The notes under the pieces: model-generated
Told to the model about the DNA's origin: nothing
The model's input: only the letters and a program-made list of their open reading frames with translations
Databases searched by the model: none
NCBI RefSeq assembly: GCF_026625865.1
Contig: NZ_CP113067.1
Span: 2,294,001 to 2,358,000 of the forward strand
Direction: 5' to 3'
Length of the DNA stretch: 64,000 nt
Source of the DNA: Microbacterium sp. SL75
Lineage (GTDB): Bacteria; Actinomycetota; Actinomycetes; Actinomycetales; Microbacteriaceae
Made by a program: the position numbers and the translations under genes
In this document: piece after piece, positions 5,026 to 63,338 of the stretch
How positions within the stretch are numbered: the stretch's first letter is position 1
How the letters are laid out: every line of letters starts with the position of its first letter

Positions 5026-6108
5026 ATGCGCCGCGTCCTCATCCTCGGTTCCACCGGTTCGATCGGCACGCAGGCGCTCGACGTCATCGCCGACAACGCC
5101 GATCGCTTCGAGGTCGTCGGTCTCGCCGCCGGCACCGACCGTGCCGGCGTCGAGGCGCAGGCCCTGGCCTTCGGCGTCGAGCACACCGCCCTCGGTGCCG
5201 TCGAGGCCGAGCAGCTCGTGCGCGACGTCGAGGCCGACGTGGTGCTCAACGGCATCACCGGGTCGGTCGGACTCGGTCCCACCATCGCCGCCCTCGAGGC
5301 GGGGCGCACCCTCGCCCTCGCCAACAAAGAGTCGTTGATCGTCGGCGGCGAGCTCGTCACCGCGCTCGCCGCCGAGGGGCAGATCGTCCCGGTGGACTCC
5401 GAGCACTCCGCGATCGCCCAGGCGCTGCGCTCCGGTCACGACGGTGAAGTGCGCCGGCTCGTGCTCACGGCATCCGGAGGCCCCTTCCGCGGACGCTCGC
5501 GCGACGAGCTGCAGAACGTCACCCCCGCGGAAGCCCTCGCTCACCCCACGTGGGACATGGGCCGTGTGGTCACGACGAACTCCGCCACTCTCGTCAACAA
5601 GGGCCTCGAGGTGATCGAGGCGCACCTGCTCTTCGACGTGCCGTACGACCGGATCGCGGTGACCGTGCACCCGCAGTCGATCGTGCACTCGATGGTCGAG
5701 TTCGTCGACGGCTCGACCATCGCGCAGGCGTCGCCGCCCGACATGCGTCTGCCGATCTCGCTCGGCCTCGACTGGCCGCATCGCATCGCCGGCGTGGGCG
5801 TTCCGCTCGATTGGACGCGCGCCTCGCAGTGGACCTTCGAGCCGCTCGACGAGAAGGCGTTCGGATCGGTGGCCCTGGCCAAGAAGGTCGGACGCGCGGG
5901 CGCCACCTATCCCGCCGTGTTCAACGCGGCCAACGAGCAGGCCGTCGACGCGTTCCACGAGGGTCGGCTGAGCTTCCTCGAGATCGTCGAGCTGATCGAG
6001 CGCGTGGTGGACCGCCACGAGCCGCCGACGAAGCTCACGCGCGAGTCGCTCGCCGAAGCCGAGGCCTGGGCACGGCGCACCGCCGACGAGATCATCGCGG
6101 CGCGCTGA
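5026..6108 (+). CDS. dxr: 1-deoxy-D-xylulose 5-phosphate reductoisomerase
   Basis: 360 residues. It converts DXP to methylerythritol 4-phosphate with NADPH, the committed step of the MEP isoprenoid pathway. The NADPH-binding turn [11 protein letters not shown] is at residues 6-16. [10 protein letters not shown] carries the metal/substrate Asp and Glu, followed by TASGGPF and later [12 protein letters not shown]. The length is somewhat short but the C-terminal helical region ([18 protein letters not shown]) is present. ispG, a later enzyme of the same pathway, lies 5.6 kb downstream on the same strand with rseP between, the usual actinobacterial grouping. The stop codon lies inside a three-copy tandem repeat. 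Confidence 0.95.
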
Positions 6109-6142
6109 ACCCGGCGCGCTGAACCCGGCGCGCTGAACCCGG
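6101..6142. repeat. three perfect 14-bp tandem copies spanning the dxr stop codon
   Basis: CGCGCTGAACCCGG is repeated at 6101-6114, 6115-6128 and 6129-6142. Copy 1 supplies the last codon and TGA stop of dxr; copies 2 and 3 repeat the stop downstream. The rest of the 246-bp gap to murE holds no gene that I can see. Confidence 0.9.
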
Positions 6143-35125: not shown

Positions 35126-35160
35126 ACCGGAGGTCGTAGCCACCGGCTACGGCCTCCGGT
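35126..35160 (+). terminator. hairpin immediately after infB
   Basis: ACCGGAGG (35126-35133) pairs with CCTCCGGT (35153-35160), enclosing a second 6-bp stem GTAGCC/GGCTAC. It begins 7 nt after the infB stop and is followed by TTCG. Confidence 0.65.
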
Positions 35161-35220
35161 TTCGTGGGTCTGCGGGAGCAGAGCGGGGCCCTACCCCGAT
35201 GCTCCCGCAGACCCACGAAA
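35160..35220. repeat. 61-bp inverted repeat with perfect 21-bp arms
   Basis: The arms 35160-35180 and 35200-35220 are perfect reverse complements; the loop contains a further CGGGG/CCCCG stem (35184-35188, 35194-35198). The left arm starts at the last base of the infB hairpin. It lies wholly between infB and rbfA and has no T tract on the plus strand. Confidence 0.9.
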
Positions 35221-35235
35221 CCTCCGTCCTTCGCC

Positions 35236-36850: not shown

Positions 36851-36918
36851 CACGCGTAAACGCCCTCCGCGCCCGTAAACGCGAGCAGAGCGTGTTTCTG
36901 TGCGCGGGTCGCGTTTCT
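36851..36918. repeat. quartet palindromic repeat, family B (TAAACGCG core), degenerate copy
   Basis: Two direct cores GTAAACGC(C/G) at 36856-36864 and 36875-36883 are followed by two inverted cores (C)G(C/T)GTTTCT at 36891-36899 and 36910-36918. All neighbours are 19 nt apart except across the centre. The left 33 nt (36851-36883) match the left arm of the copy at 63266 at 28 of 33 positions. It lies between the divergent mutY and 37001 promoters. Confidence 0.75.
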
Positions 36919-36988
36919 GCCTGGTTCGGGACGGCGCGGCGCAGCCGTTGCGGGGCGGAGAGCGCGGTCGAGTGTCGGTGGTCGACCG

Positions 36989-47834: not shown

Positions 47835-48863
47835 ATGAAGATCGGCATCCTGACCAGCGGCGGCGACTGCCCCGGGCTGAACGCGGTCATCCGTGGCGTC
47901 GTGCTCAAGGGCACGACGAACTACGACATCGAGTTCGTCGGCATCCGCGACGGCTGGCGCGGCGTGGTCGACGGCGACTTCTTCCCGCTCACGCGTCATG
48001 AGGTGAAGGGCCTGTCCAAGGTCGGCGGCACCATCCTCGGCACGAGCCGCACCAACCCCTACGAGGGGGCACGCGGCGGCGCCGAGAACATCTCCAAGAC
48101 CATGTACGGGCACCGGCTCGACGGCATCCTGGCCATCGGCGGCGAAGGCACGCTGGCCGCGGCCGACCGTCTGTCGAAGGACGGCATCAACGTGCTCGGC
48201 GTCCCCAAGACGATCGACAACGACCTCCGCGCCACCGACTACTCGTTCGGTTTCGACACGGCCGTCAACATCGCAACGGATGCCATGGACCGCCTCCGAA
48301 CGACCGGTGACTCGCACCAGCGCTGCATGGTGGCCGAGGTCATGGGCCGTCACGTCGGCTGGATCGCCCTGCACGCGGGTATCGCCGCGGGTGCCCACGT
48401 GATCTGCATCCCCGAGGTGCCGATGTCGATCGACGAGATCGTCGAGCAGGTCACCCGCGCGCACGACCGCGGTCGCGCGCCCCTGGTCGTCGTGTCGGAG
48501 GGCTTCAAGCTCACGGGCATGGACGAGGCCTTCAGCGACAAGGGCCTCGATGCCTTCAACCGTCCCCGCCTGGGCGGCATCGGCGAGCTGCTCGCGCCCG
48601 AGATCGAGCGCCTCACCGGCATCGAGACCCGTTCCACCGTGCTCGGACACATCCAGCGCGGCGGTTCGCCCTCGGGCTTCGACCGCGTCCTCGCCACGCG
48701 CCTGGGTCTGCACGCCGCCGACGCTCTCCACGAAGGCGCGTGGGGCCAGATGGTGGCGATGCGCGGCACCGACATCGTGCGCGTCCCCTTCGCCGACGCC
48801 CTCGGCGAGCTCAACAGCGTGCCCCTGTACCGCTACGAAGAGGCCGCGGCCCTCTTCGGCTGA
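47835..48863 (+). CDS. pfkA: 6-phosphofructokinase
   Basis: 342 residues. The fold opens with ILTSGGDCPGLNAVIRG. The nucleotide site reads AIGGEGTLAAA: the residue after the acidic one is Gly105, matching E. coli Gly104, which favours ATP over pyrophosphate. The next key position is Lys125 in VPKTIDND, where E. coli has Gly124; Lys is typical of the group that includes PPi enzymes and ATP-using actinobacterial PFKs. Asp128 is the catalytic base. It phosphorylates fructose 6-phosphate in glycolysis. ATG 47835 was chosen over the frame open from 47745 because the family starts MKIGILTSGG. Confidence 0.93.
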   Translation: MKIGILTSGGDCPGLNAVIRGVVLKGTTNYDIEFVGIRDGWRGVVDGDFFPLTRHEVKGLSKVGGTILGTSRTNPYEGARGGAENISKTMYGHRLDGILAIGGEGTLAAADRLSKDGINVLGVPKTIDNDLRATDYSFGFDTAVNIATDAMDRLRTTGDSHQRCMVAEVMGRHVGWIALHAGIAAGAHVICIPEVPMSIDEIVEQVTRAHDRGRAPLVVVSEGFKLTGMDEAFSDKGLDAFNRPRLGGIGELLAPEIERLTGIETRSTVLGHIQRGGSPSGFDRVLATRLGLHAADALHEGAWGQMVAMRGTDIVRVPFADALGELNSVPLYRYEEAAALFG

Positions 48864-48875
48864 GCTTCGGTGCGT

Positions 48876-48912
48876 CGACGCCCCGTCCCGCCTCGTGCGG
48901 GGCGGGGCGTCG
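48876..48912 (+). terminator. hairpin after pfkA
   Basis: A 16-bp GC-rich stem (48876-48891 with 48897-48912, one T:G pair) and a 5-nt loop start 12 nt after the stop codon. Confidence 0.7.
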
Positions 48913-48970
48913 CGCTGTGGGTGGGGTGTTGCGCTGTGGGGTCGGGCGGTCGGGGTGCCTCGTCCGGATT

Positions 48971-49054
48971 GTCACGAGAACAGGGCGGTGCGCCCGGAAC
49001 AGGGGAATCGGGGCGGTTTTCTCCTGTTCTCGTGGCATCCCCTGTTCTGGTGAC
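48971..49054. repeat. quartet palindromic repeat, family A (GAGAACAGG core), copy 1
   Basis: 84 bp. Direct cores GAGAACAGG (48976-48984) and CGGAACAGG (48995-49003) are followed by inverted cores CCTGTTCTC (49023-49031) and CCTGTTCTG (49041-49049); the ends are GTCAC and GTGAC. It lies in the 366-bp gap between pfkA and the DUF559 gene, which holds no gene. Confidence 0.85.
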
Positions 49055-49118
49055 GTGGAAGGGCCGCGGTATCGATTCGGTGGGCGGGTCGGCCTGACGT
49101 ATGCGCTTCCTCCGGGCC

Positions 49119-49202
49119 GTTACGAGAACAGGGCGGTGCGCCCGGAACAGGGGAATCGAGGCAGTTTTCTCCTGTTCTCGTGGCATCCCCTGTTCTGGTG
49201 AC
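49119..49202. repeat. quartet palindromic repeat, family A, copy 2
   Basis: 84 bp, nearly identical to copy 1 over its full length (only a few substitutions), and separated from it by 64 bp of unrelated sequence. It ends 27 bp from the DUF559 stop codon. Confidence 0.85.
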
Positions 49203-49229
49203 GCAGGGGGGCGGACCGGGCGGAACGAC

Positions 49230-50075
49230 TCAGCGGGACGGGAAGAGGTGGCGTCCCTGCGCCATCGCGAGGCGCACGGTGTCGATCACATAGGCGGGCT
49301 CGAACAGGATCTGCACGTAGTCGAAGCGGAGGACCGTGTACCCGCGCAGCACCAGCCGGGCGTCCTGGCGGAGGTCGCGGCGCCGGTCCGTCGGTGAGCT
49401 GTGGAAAGCGAACCCATCTATCTGAATCGCCAGGCGCTCGCCGATCACGGCGTCGACCGGGTGCCCGTCGACCCATACCTGCTGCCGCAGGCGGATGCCG
49501 ATCGCGAGCATCAGCTCGCGGAAGTGCGTCTCGAGGCCCGAGTCGGAGAGGAACGTGGCGACGTGCGCGAACCTCGAGGCTCGGGTCGAGCGCCAACCCA
49601 CCGCCGCCAGGGTGTCGGCATCCACCTTCTTCGACCGAAGTGCGGATTCCCACACGGCGAGACCGTCGACGGGAGGAAGGCAGCGGGCGACGTGGAACAG
49701 CACGTTGACGATGGGCTCGAGGGGATCGGTGCGCATCAGGGGTATGGGTGCAGTGGCGCGATGCAGTCGCAGACGTGCGTCGTCGAGGCGCGAGGCCGTG
49801 GCGGGCACCCACACGTGCACGTCTTCGCTCTGCGGTGTCCACAGGCCCATGTCATGAGCCGCGCTCACGCACGTCGACCGACCGCTGACGGATGCCGCTC
49901 TCTTCCGGCTCGAGGGACAGTCGGGCGTGACGATCCAGGAACGCCGGATGCGTTCCACCTCCGACGTCGCCACCGCCGCCGCGATCGCCCGTGGGCCGAA
50001 GCCGGCAGCCGCAGCCGAGGTCGTGTGCGCGACGCCGCCGCGTGCCGTCAACCATGCGACCAGGCTGGGTTCCAT
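49230..50075 (-). CDS. DUF559/Vsr-like endonuclease-domain protein with N-terminal helix-turn-helix-like region
   Basis: 281 residues from ATG 50075. The N-terminal part (LVAWLTARGGVAHTTSAAAAGFGPRAIAAAV) looks like a winged-helix, AbiEi-antitoxin-like segment. The C-terminal 100 residues match the DUF559 nuclease fold: ETHFRELMLAIGIRLRQQVWV, then VDAVIGERLAIQIDGFAFH and RRRDLRQDARLVLRGYTVLRFDY. DNA cleavage is not shown. The frame stays open to 50261, but that extension is repeat sequence. The gene is bracketed by family A repeats: copies 1 and 2 at its 3' side and copy 3 at its 5' side. Confidence 0.75.
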   Translation of the reverse strand: MEPSLVAWLTARGGVAHTTSAAAAGFGPRAIAAAVATSEVERIRRSWIVTPDCPSSRKRAASVSGRSTCVSAAHDMGLWTPQSEDVHVWVPATASRLDDARLRLHRATAPIPLMRTDPLEPIVNVLFHVARCLPPVDGLAVWESALRSKKVDADTLAAVGWRSTRASRFAHVATFLSDSGLETHFRELMLAIGIRLRQQVWVDGHPVDAVIGERLAIQIDGFAFHSSPTDRRRDLRQDARLVLRGYTVLRFDYVQILFEPAYVIDTVRLAMAQGRHLFPSR

Positions 50076-50181
50076 CGCACCAGACTCGCGGCCGGGAGAC
50101 GCCAGTCGTCCCCTGCTTCCGCGAAATGGGGATGGTTCGGAGGAGGAGCGGCCTGGGGACGAGTGTCGGAGCAGCGCGTTC

Positions 50182-50264
50182 GTCACGAGAACAGGAGATG
50201 CGACGAGAACAGGGCGAAACCGGCCGATTCGCCCTGTTCTCGTGACTTCCCCTGTTCTCATGAC
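50182..50264. repeat. quartet palindromic repeat, family A, copy 3
   Basis: 83 bp. Cores GAGAACAGG at 50187-50195 and 50205-50213, inverted CCTGTTCTC at 50233-50241 and 50251-50259, ends GTCAC and ATGAC. The inner pair forms a perfect 16-bp arm (ACGAGAACAGGGCGAA and its complement). Outside the cores the sequence differs from copies 1 and 2, so the cores are the conserved part. Confidence 0.85.
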
Positions 50265-50287
50265 GCAACGCCGCGGAATCCAGACGC

Positions 50288-50322
50288 CGAACGCCCCGCC
50301 GCGCGAGGCGACGGGGCGTTCG
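50288..50322 (-). terminator. hairpin after the S9 peptidase gene
   Basis: CGAACGCCCCG (50288-50298) pairs with 50312-50322; it lies just beyond the minus-strand stop codon at 50338. Confidence 0.65.
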
Positions 50323-50337
50323 AGACGCGGGTCGGGC

Positions 50338-52452
50338 TTACTCCGCCAGGCCCAGCACGTCGAGCAACCACGCGATCTCGAAGGCGCGCTCGCGCCAGGC
50401 GTTGTAGCGGCCGCTGACGCCGCCGTGACCGGCGACCATCTCGCACTTCAGCAGCGCGTCGGCACCGACTTCGCGCAGGCGCGCGACCCACTTCGCGGGC
50501 TCGACGTACATCACGCGGGTGTCGTTGAGCGAGGTGACCGCGAGGATGCGGGGGTACTCGACGCCCTCGCGCACGTTCTCGTACGGCGAGTACGACTTCA
50601 TGTAGGCGTAGACGTCCGCATCGTGCAGCGGGTCGCCCCACTCGTCCCACTCGATAACGGTGAGGGGGAGCGAGGGGTCGAGGATCGTCGTCAGCGCATC
50701 GACGAAGGGCACGTCGGCCAGCACACCGGCGAACATCTCGGGCGCGAGGTTCGCCACGGCGCCCATGAGCAGGCCCCCGGCGCTTCCGCCTTCGGCGACG
50801 ATCCGGTCGGGGGTGGTGTACCCGGCATCCACGAGGTGACGCGCCGCGGCGACGAAGTCGGTGAAGGTGTTGCGCTTGGCCCGCATCTTGCCGTCTTCGT
50901 ACCACTGACGGCCCATCTCGCCGCCGCCGCGCACGTGGGCGACCGCGAAGACGACGCCTCGGTCGAGCAGCGACAGGCGCGGCACCGAGAAGCCGGGCTC
51001 GATCGAGTGTTCGTACGATCCGTAGCCGTATAGGTGCACCGGTCGGGGCGACGAACCGGGGTCGCCGAACGAGCGCTTCCACACGAGCGATACGGGCACC
51101 TGGGTGCCGTCCTCGGCGGGGGCCCAGACGCGCGCCTGCCCGTAGTCTGCGGGGTCGAACCCGCCCAGCACGGGCTGGCGCTTGCGCAGCAGCAGTTCGC
51201 CGGTCTCGACGACGTAGTCGTACACGGTGCCGGGGGTGACGAACGAGCCGTAGCCGAGGCGCAGCACCGGGGGTGCGTATTCGGGGTTGCCGCCGGTGCC
51301 GACACTGTACAGCGGCTCGTCGAACCCGATCTCGGTCACGGCGCCGTCGGCGTACGACAGCATGCCCAGGCGTGCGAGGCCGTCGCGCCGGTAGCCGACC
51401 ACGCCCCAGTCGCGGAAGGTGTCGACGCCCAGCAGACGGTGGCCGGTGCGGTGCGCGATCACCGTCTCGCGCGGACCCTGAGGATCGGATGCCGAGACCC
51501 GCACGAGCTCGAAATCGAGAGCGCCGTCGTTGTGCAGGATGTACAGCACGTCCTCACCGTCGACCACGGCGTGCGAGGAGGAGTACTCGACGCCCTCGCG
51601 GCGCGGCCACACCACGCGGGGTTCGCCGCGGAGGTCATCGGCATCGAGGATCCACTCCTCGCTCGTGATCGACGAGCCCATCTCGATCACGAGGAAGCGG
51701 TCGCTGCGGGTGAAGTCGGCGCCGATCCAGTACCGATCGTCGGGCTCGTGGAAGAGCTTCGCGTCGTCGCTGACGGGCGTTCCGATCTCGTGCAGCCACA
51801 CGGTGTCGGGCCGCCAGGCGTCGTCGACGGTGGTGTAGACGATGAAGCGCCCGTCGGGCGAGAACGTCGCACCCGAGAAGGTGCCGGGGATCTCGTCGGC
51901 GAGCGTCTCGCCGGTGGTGAGGTCGCGCACGCGAACGGTGTAGCGCTCGTCGCCCGCGACGTCGATGCCGTAGAGCATGCGCGTGCCGTCGTTCGAGACC
52001 TCGAAGCTGCCGAGCGAGAAGAACTCGGTGCCTTCGGCCTCGACGTTGCCGTCGAACAGCACCTGCTCGCCGGAGACGGGGGAGTCGGGCGAGAGGGTAG
52101 GCGGCGTCCAGTCGTCGGGGGAGTCGAGGGGGGCGCGGCATTGGATGCCGTACTGGGCCCCGGCGACCGTGCGACCGTAGTACCACCAATCGCCCCGGCG
52201 CGCGGGCACCGACAGGTCGGTCTCGAGCGTGCGGCCCTTGATCTCACCGAAGACCGTGTCGCGAAGGGGGGCGAGGTGCGCGGTGCGCTCGCCCGTGTAG
52301 GCGTTCTCGGCCTCGAGGTGCGCGAGAACCTCGGCATCGTCCTTGGCGCGCAACCACTCGTACGGATCGTCGAACGTGTCGCCGTGGTGGGTTCGCGCGA
52401 CAGGGCGGCGGTCGGCGACGGGCGGGGTGAGCTTCGGGTCGAGATCGGTCAC
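50338..52452 (-). CDS. S9-family prolyl oligopeptidase / oligopeptidase B-like serine peptidase
   Basis: 704 residues, no signal peptide, so probably cytoplasmic. An N-terminal beta-propeller (about 70-410) covers the C-terminal alpha/beta-hydrolase domain. The catalytic Ser557 is in AEGGSAGGLLMGA, the Asp is in a loop near SLNDTRVMYVEPAKW, and the His is in VAGHGGVSGRYNAW. HVRGGGEMGRQWYEDGK is the S9A/oligopeptidase B signature. It cleaves short peptides after Pro or basic residues. GTG 52452 follows a -10 hexamer by 6 nt. It is divergent from the phosphate transporter. Confidence 0.9.
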   Translation of the reverse strand: MTDLDPKLTPPVADRRPVARTHHGDTFDDPYEWLRAKDDAEVLAHLEAENAYTGERTAHLAPLRDTVFGEIKGRTLETDLSVPARRGDWWYYGRTVAGAQYGIQCRAPLDSPDDWTPPTLSPDSPVSGEQVLFDGNVEAEGTEFFSLGSFEVSNDGTRMLYGIDVAGDERYTVRVRDLTTGETLADEIPGTFSGATFSPDGRFIVYTTVDDAWRPDTVWLHEIGTPVSDDAKLFHEPDDRYWIGADFTRSDRFLVIEMGSSITSEEWILDADDLRGEPRVVWPRREGVEYSSSHAVVDGEDVLYILHNDGALDFELVRVSASDPQGPRETVIAHRTGHRLLGVDTFRDWGVVGYRRDGLARLGMLSYADGAVTEIGFDEPLYSVGTGGNPEYAPPVLRLGYGSFVTPGTVYDYVVETGELLLRKRQPVLGGFDPADYGQARVWAPAEDGTQVPVSLVWKRSFGDPGSSPRPVHLYGYGSYEHSIEPGFSVPRLSLLDRGVVFAVAHVRGGGEMGRQWYEDGKMRAKRNTFTDFVAAARHLVDAGYTTPDRIVAEGGSAGGLLMGAVANLAPEMFAGVLADVPFVDALTTILDPSLPLTVIEWDEWGDPLHDADVYAYMKSYSPYENVREGVEYPRILAVTSLNDTRVMYVEPAKWVARLREVGADALLKCEMVAGHGGVSGRYNAWRERAFEIAWLLDVLGLAE

Positions 52453-63265: not shown

Positions 63266-63338
63266 CACGCATAAACGCGATCGGCGCCCATAAACGCGAT
63301 GTGCACGCGTTTATGGGCGCCGACGGTGTTTATGCGTG
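63266..63338. repeat. quartet palindromic repeat, family B (TAAACGCG core), well-conserved copy
   Basis: Two 33-nt arms (63266-63298 and 63306-63338) are reverse complements at 30 of 33 positions, with a 7-nt loop. Each arm holds two cores: ATAAACGCG at 63271 and 63290, inverted CGCGTTTAT at 63306 and GGTGTTTAT at 63325, 19 nt apart. It lies in the 290-bp gap between rpsO and the oxygenase gene. Confidence 0.9.

Follow-up and report, generated by a model that had tools for sequence, protein, structure and literature searches.

Quartet repeats bracketing an AbiEi-like/Vsr-like nuclease gene in Microbacterium sp. SL75 suggest a dispersed nuclease/repeat pair

The window analyzed here, a 64,000-nucleotide stretch of the Microbacterium sp. 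SL75 genome (NZ_CP113067.1, positions 2,294,001 to 2,358,000), contains a gene for a 281-aa protein (49230..50075, reverse strand) located between genes for a phosphofructokinase and an S9 peptidase (Peptidase_S9) and bracketed by three repeat elements, each with two direct and two inverted copies of a short core word and here called quartets. Copy 1 (48971..49054), the outer one, and copy 2 (49119..49202), 27 bp from the gene end, lie on the downstream side, and copy 3 (50182..50264) lies approximately 106 bp upstream of the gene start; none is assigned a strand. The initial annotation placed the elements around one gene and missed that they form a unit with it. The quartets are found here to be that gene's own repeats, and there are further gene/repeat pairs with this layout.

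The three elements of 83-84 bp are present as annotated, with two direct and then two inverted cores at 18-19 nt spacing and GTCAC/GTGAC-like ends in every copy. The core word, which defines family A, is GAGAACAGG. Four 9-nt cores had been described for each copy, and this is exact for copy 3 only; in copies 1 and 2, two cores are exact, a third has one mismatch and the fourth has two. The first two core starts are 18 or 19 nt apart, the middle two, which span the dyad, 28 nt, and the last two 18 nt. As noted previously, copies 1 and 2 are near-identical (89% identity over 108 nt), and the cores are indeed the conserved part of family A elements. A free-word scan, which accepts any quartet of the same plan, scored copies 1, 2 and 3 at 48, 48 and 54 of 54, respectively, vs a best score of 47 in five dinucleotide shuffles of the window (320 kb). 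Single GAGAACAGG cores with at most one mismatch number 18 in the window vs 10.7 expected (at least 18 in 4 of 100 shuffles), an excess that is weak when taken alone. A chance origin of the quartets is ruled out by the shuffles and by the reversed-pattern counts given below.

The start of the 281-aa gene was set from its homologues. The open frame itself extends to 50261, within copy 3, and this overlap was rejected as an over-long start because the homologues begin at residue 63. Structure modeling and domain searches were run on P0001, a database protein with 98% identity to the product, and the predicted fold has an AbiEi-like half with a winged helix and a middle domain (residues ~1-177) and a Vsr/I-Bth0305I-like half with a Vsr/EDxHD-type nuclease domain (~177-275). 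Pfam matches at E up to 1 were MTES_1575, DUF559, Vsr (weakly) and a single unrelated family, also weak, with no transposase; the nuclease domain is above the DUF559 cut-off and slightly below that of MTES_1575. Its candidate catalytic residues are invariant in the sequences compared. No AbiEii toxin gene is adjacent, and the open reading frames past the phosphofructokinase and Peptidase_S9 genes gave no Pfam match in one case and PHO4 in the other. The gene resembles an antitoxin that binds repeats, fused to a DNA-cutting enzyme of the homing type. AbiEi proteins are reported to bind inverted repeats, with Rv2827c occupying four simultaneously (PMC7319586), and I-Bth0305I, the closest solved nuclease, is reported to dimerize on nearly 60 bp (PMC3943268).

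Homologues of the 281-aa gene (E up to 1e-3) are found in 284 of 295 Microbacterium genomes. Ninety loci of the closest group were read (30 plus 60, from a homologue search that lists its best matches only), with three genomes contributing two loci each; twelve further listed places with at least 47% identity, among them partial matches and second copies, are not part of this set. The flanking is two-sided and specific to the gene: a quartet lies within 300 bp in 54/90 loci and on both sides in 26/90, vs 0/90 in shuffled loci, and a lower scan threshold raises these counts to 67/90 and 40/90 with shuffled loci still at 0. The 52 named loci, which are largely of the same species and not independent, include 35 with a quartet and 15 with quartets on both sides. 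In these named loci, 54 quartets were counted in 30.9 kb near the gene, vs 6 in the 344.7 kb that lie more than 600 bp from it. A second gene clade (41-47% identity, 20 loci) has quartets in 16/20, with words including GGATTCGG and TTCTGCGG.

The median distance of the quartets from the gene is 112 bp on the upstream side and 26 bp on the downstream side, and over four sets the upstream medians range from 101.5 to 115 bp. Such a constant upstream position is what an AbiEi-type autoregulator or genome-wide binder would show, with quartets acting as operators or as anchors for regulation or chromosome organization and the nuclease secondary or dead; the AbiEi-like fold agrees with this, as does the reported autoregulation of AbiEi proteins via promoter inverted repeats (PMC7319586). 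We consider this explanation unlikely, as the downstream quartet is equally regular (medians 18 to 29 bp) and is left unexplained. Nor does this reading account for the grouping of quartets in threes and fours, for an orthologous spacer that is filled in some genomes and not in others, or for the alternative cassettes, all described below; the invariance of the candidate catalytic residues speaks against a dead nuclease.

Core words beside the gene vary by genome and include GAGAACAGG, GAGATCAGG, GGAATCAGG, GACGTAGG, GGCGCAGG, GCGTAGG and others, and within a locus the left and right words agree. Left and right cores of one locus have a mean similarity of 0.716, 0.710 and 0.702 in three clades (26/89, 12/20 and 10/26 loci with both sides, respectively) vs 0.552, 0.514 and 0.573 between loci, and 0/20000 permutations reach the observed value in each clade. 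Loci truncated at a contig end (one A, four B) are not counted, and one species contributes two of the ten B loci. Left elements compared across genomes (0.557, 0.524 and 0.583) are less alike than the left and right elements of one gene. Because the word varies by genome yet matches across the gene, a selfish gene-plus-repeat pair is indicated. Core and protein similarity are weakly correlated over 53 A loci (rho 0.23, 0/2000 permutations), for which common descent could also be sufficient.

Quartets are also dispersed, as the initial annotation had proposed. In the genome of the window there are 76 exact GAGAACAGG words vs 5 for the reversed word and 14 GAGAACAGG pairs at quartet spacing vs 0 in the control, and ATAAACGCG counted likewise gives 42 vs 1. 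Across Microbacterium, pairs occur in 80/295 genomes and the reversed pattern in 0/295. For the 90 loci, with pairs beside the gene subtracted, GAGAACAGG pairs elsewhere in the genome accompany 22/23 loci with two or more flanking GAGAACAGG cores, 9/15 with one core and 5/52 without a flanking core. That dispersed copies share the core word of the resident gene is well supported for this one word only. One-direction GAGAACAGG runs with constant 17-18 nt steps (tandem core arrays) were seen at G029:C3:251283-251381, G236:C1:825560-825619, G258:C1:3059581-3059657 and G280:C1:1181111-1181191.

A census of 20 fetched stretches and the window, from which 10 matches of neither family were dropped, yielded 16 family A quartets and 27 quartets of a second family, B. 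An intergenic bias was evident, with 41 of these 43 quartets outside genes as judged by a crude, codon-composition gene caller whose coverage of the single stretches ranged from 35-91%; three of the 41 are between divergent genes. Both families form clusters of three or four quartets approximately 150-190 bp apart.

Family B is represented in the window by a quartet downstream of rpsO (63266..63338, no strand assigned, core CATAAACGCG, scan score 51) and by a diverged quartet (36851..36923, scan position 36855, no strand assigned) whose score of 43 is within the shuffle range alone and which has the word of family B. The gene of this family was recognized by the family B quartets around it; it lies outside the window at G000:C1:482710-483621 and encodes a 304-aa protein with no Pfam match and a PADLOC match to AbiEi (E 1e-9). 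Its homologues occur in 281/295 Microbacterium genomes, and quartets stand beside it in 20 of the 30 loci read. Paralogues of the nuclease gene at C1:511994 and C1:2040392 were considered as owners of family B and rejected, as neither has quartets nearby and the owner is the gene just described. Close to the quartet-free paralogue at 511994, a perfect tandem array of a short unit (GGCCCGTA..., repeats at no more than 16 nt) lies at L002:861-938 (G000:C1).

The spacer downstream of rpsO is variably occupied. Both anchors are present in 22/30 loci, and 8 of these 22 contain a quartet of the right spacing. The occupant is a family B quartet in G000 and G027, a family A element in G007, and the variant ATAAACAC in G006, where it also flanks that genome's own B gene; G016, G020 and G024 have CGATAAACG variants, which in G020 and G024 also occur beside the B gene, and G012 has another word. 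Quartets of the same plan at L061:8474 and in L243 (the rpsO spacer of G012) have the words GAGCCGCCAC and GTTCTCCGG, which suggests additional gene/repeat pairs.

The home locus itself holds alternative cassettes. The place between the phosphofructokinase and S9 peptidase genes is occupied by an A gene in G058, G204, G007 and G027. G150 matches the window at 99% identity as far as 48942 and at 92% identity beyond 50288, and between those points it has a different AbiEi/DUF559-type gene and repeats of the word TGTCCCACTT at ~21 nt spacing. The exchanged block is edged by a hairpin after the phosphofructokinase gene (48876..48912, forward strand), which lies near its left edge and is conserved where another cassette sits, and by a hairpin after the S9 peptidase gene (50288..50322, reverse strand) at its right edge. 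The G150-type gene is also present in G063, G171, G104, G072, G020, G006, G009 and partly G016, with anchoring on one side only in the G063, G006, G009 and G016 loci and the host genes of G006 on different contigs. Exact TGTCCCACTT was found in 14/317 loci, every one of them from the phosphofructokinase-S9 peptidase place and from eight genomes; G171 carries the word only with a mismatch. The interval is just 273 bp in G024 and 122 bp in G010.

Alternative cassettes at one locus among close relatives could represent swapped alleles of a defense system, in which the nuclease restricts phages or plasmids and the quartets tether, titrate or license it. In PADLOC the 281-aa protein matches AbiEi as well as a homing-endonuclease model, and Vsr-like domains are known in defense proteins, including giant ones (PMC3710099). 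A defense role nevertheless seems improbable, given that the PADLOC scores are weak, the immediate neighbors are a phosphofructokinase and an S9 peptidase, and the dispersal of the repeats is not explained by defense alone.

The initial annotation left a choice between hairpins nested in RNA and a tetramer-binding DNA site. We favor a DNA site, in the form of a double-strand protein site with dyad symmetry, because the enclosed gene is a predicted AbiEi-like binder with a nuclease, because core repetition within an arm is not needed by a hairpin, and because the commonest family B core variant is uncompensated (3/36 pair positions beat shuffle at 0.05 among 24 distinct elements) and the arm spacings of the genome's own family A elements are often unequal (10/15). 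The tetramer itself is hypothetical. Single-strand folding of the elements is predicted to be strong (z -6.4 to -11.6), and their spacers pair at 45-62% of positions, so a hairpin step may contribute. That the quartets are essentially hairpins (REP-like 3' structures or sites of single-strand recognition), with core repetition a by-product of the palindrome, would fit these folds and the intergenic, seldom divergent setting, and is doubtful in view of the same three features, core 1 matching core 2, the uncompensated variant and the unequal arms. A terminator-like site or known RNA family was also considered and rejected, as nothing reached threshold; the 11 Rfam matches up to E 1 in 48850-50350 are all under the gathering score.

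We therefore consider it probable that the quartets are DNA sites cognate to the gene between them and that the two form a nuclease/repeat pair that spreads its elements via cutting and repair. The AbiEi-like half would bind the cores as a dyad-symmetric assembly, with four protomers on four cores, and the Vsr/I-Bth0305I-like half would nick or cut DNA at or near the element. Repair of the break could then copy elements into new intergenic sites, and repair through flanking homology would maintain or replace the bracketed cassette. The outcome would be a resident nuclease gene with a genomic population of its own recognition elements, either a selfish or a domesticated pair. We infer core binding, the four protomers, catalysis and the copying step from the predicted fold and the anatomy of the elements. 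Several observations weigh against this proposal. Movement of an element was not observed, and the evidence from the home locus consists of allele differences only. Main-threshold quartets are absent from 36/90 loci. Outside Microbacterium, a quartet accompanies 2/5 loci from further genera within the family and 0/13 from other families. The winged-helix region is not the best tracker of the core word, and Q218 occupies a position that is usually E in DUF559 proteins. The dispersal test for GAGATCAGG, which is rare as an exact pair (20/295 genomes), is weak (3/14 vs 4/70, p 0.087), so that one of two such tests is weak.

REPIN-RAYT is the model for the spread of short palindromes in bacterial genomes, and its REPs have a GTAG-type tag beside a short hairpin. 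The quartets inspected lack a GTAG-type tag at their ends, each half has two tandem cores, and the partner enzyme is predicted to be AbiEi-like plus Vsr-like rather than an IS200-like HUH/Y1 transposase. By analogy only, the two systems share inverted palindromic doublets that are extragenic, dispersed and in tandem clusters with a cognate gene adjacent. In REPIN/RAYT, each repeat type is reported to adjoin its own nuclease gene, with several pairs per genome and a long co-evolution proposed (PMC3116915). With the EDxHD homing endonuclease I-Bth0305I, and homing elements generally, the predicted nuclease fold alone is common; the 281-aa protein has an AbiEi-like DNA-binding half, and its gene is free-standing between two host genes with presumed sites on both sides that form a dispersed multicopy family. 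It differs from AbiE type IV toxin-antitoxin systems (AbiEi, Rv2827c) in the nuclease fusion, the lack of an adjacent toxin gene, and sites that flank the gene on both sides and occur elsewhere in the genome. Among Vsr-like/DUF559/REase_MTES_1575 nucleases is a predicted mismatch-repair enzyme (PMC12907096), and the available parts of that account and of the one on defense proteins (PMC3710099) mention no cognate repeats. No description of such a gene/repeat pairing was found among open-license PMC papers. We read this as an apparent functional likeness to REPIN-RAYT or a homing element that is built from unrelated parts. It would be a previously unrecognized kind of pair, since neither its enzyme nor its repeat nor its layout is related to that of REPIN-RAYT; a stricter reader may group it under a nuclease-with-repeats kind.

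We also lean, if slightly, towards a broader view, in which Microbacterium and near relatives harbor diverse selfish nuclease/repeat pairs that recognize, cut and spread quartets with a lineage-specific word and spacing, several pairs to a genome, with cassettes swapping at fixed sites as a second independent answer to the REPIN-RAYT problem. If so, nuclease-dependent repeat populations arose more than once, and many Microbacterium proteins called DUF559 or 'endonuclease domain-containing' would gain a function. As natural nucleases whose site words differ, they would also lend themselves to learning how AbiEi-type domains read DNA; each enzyme is predicted to bind its own quartet and not that of another enzyme.

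The window has two further repeats: a long inverted repeat of another kind at 35145-35235 (36-nt arms, 83% complementary, 19-nt loop) and, at 6083-6138, the 14-mer CCGGCGCGCTGAAC as a short tandem repeat.
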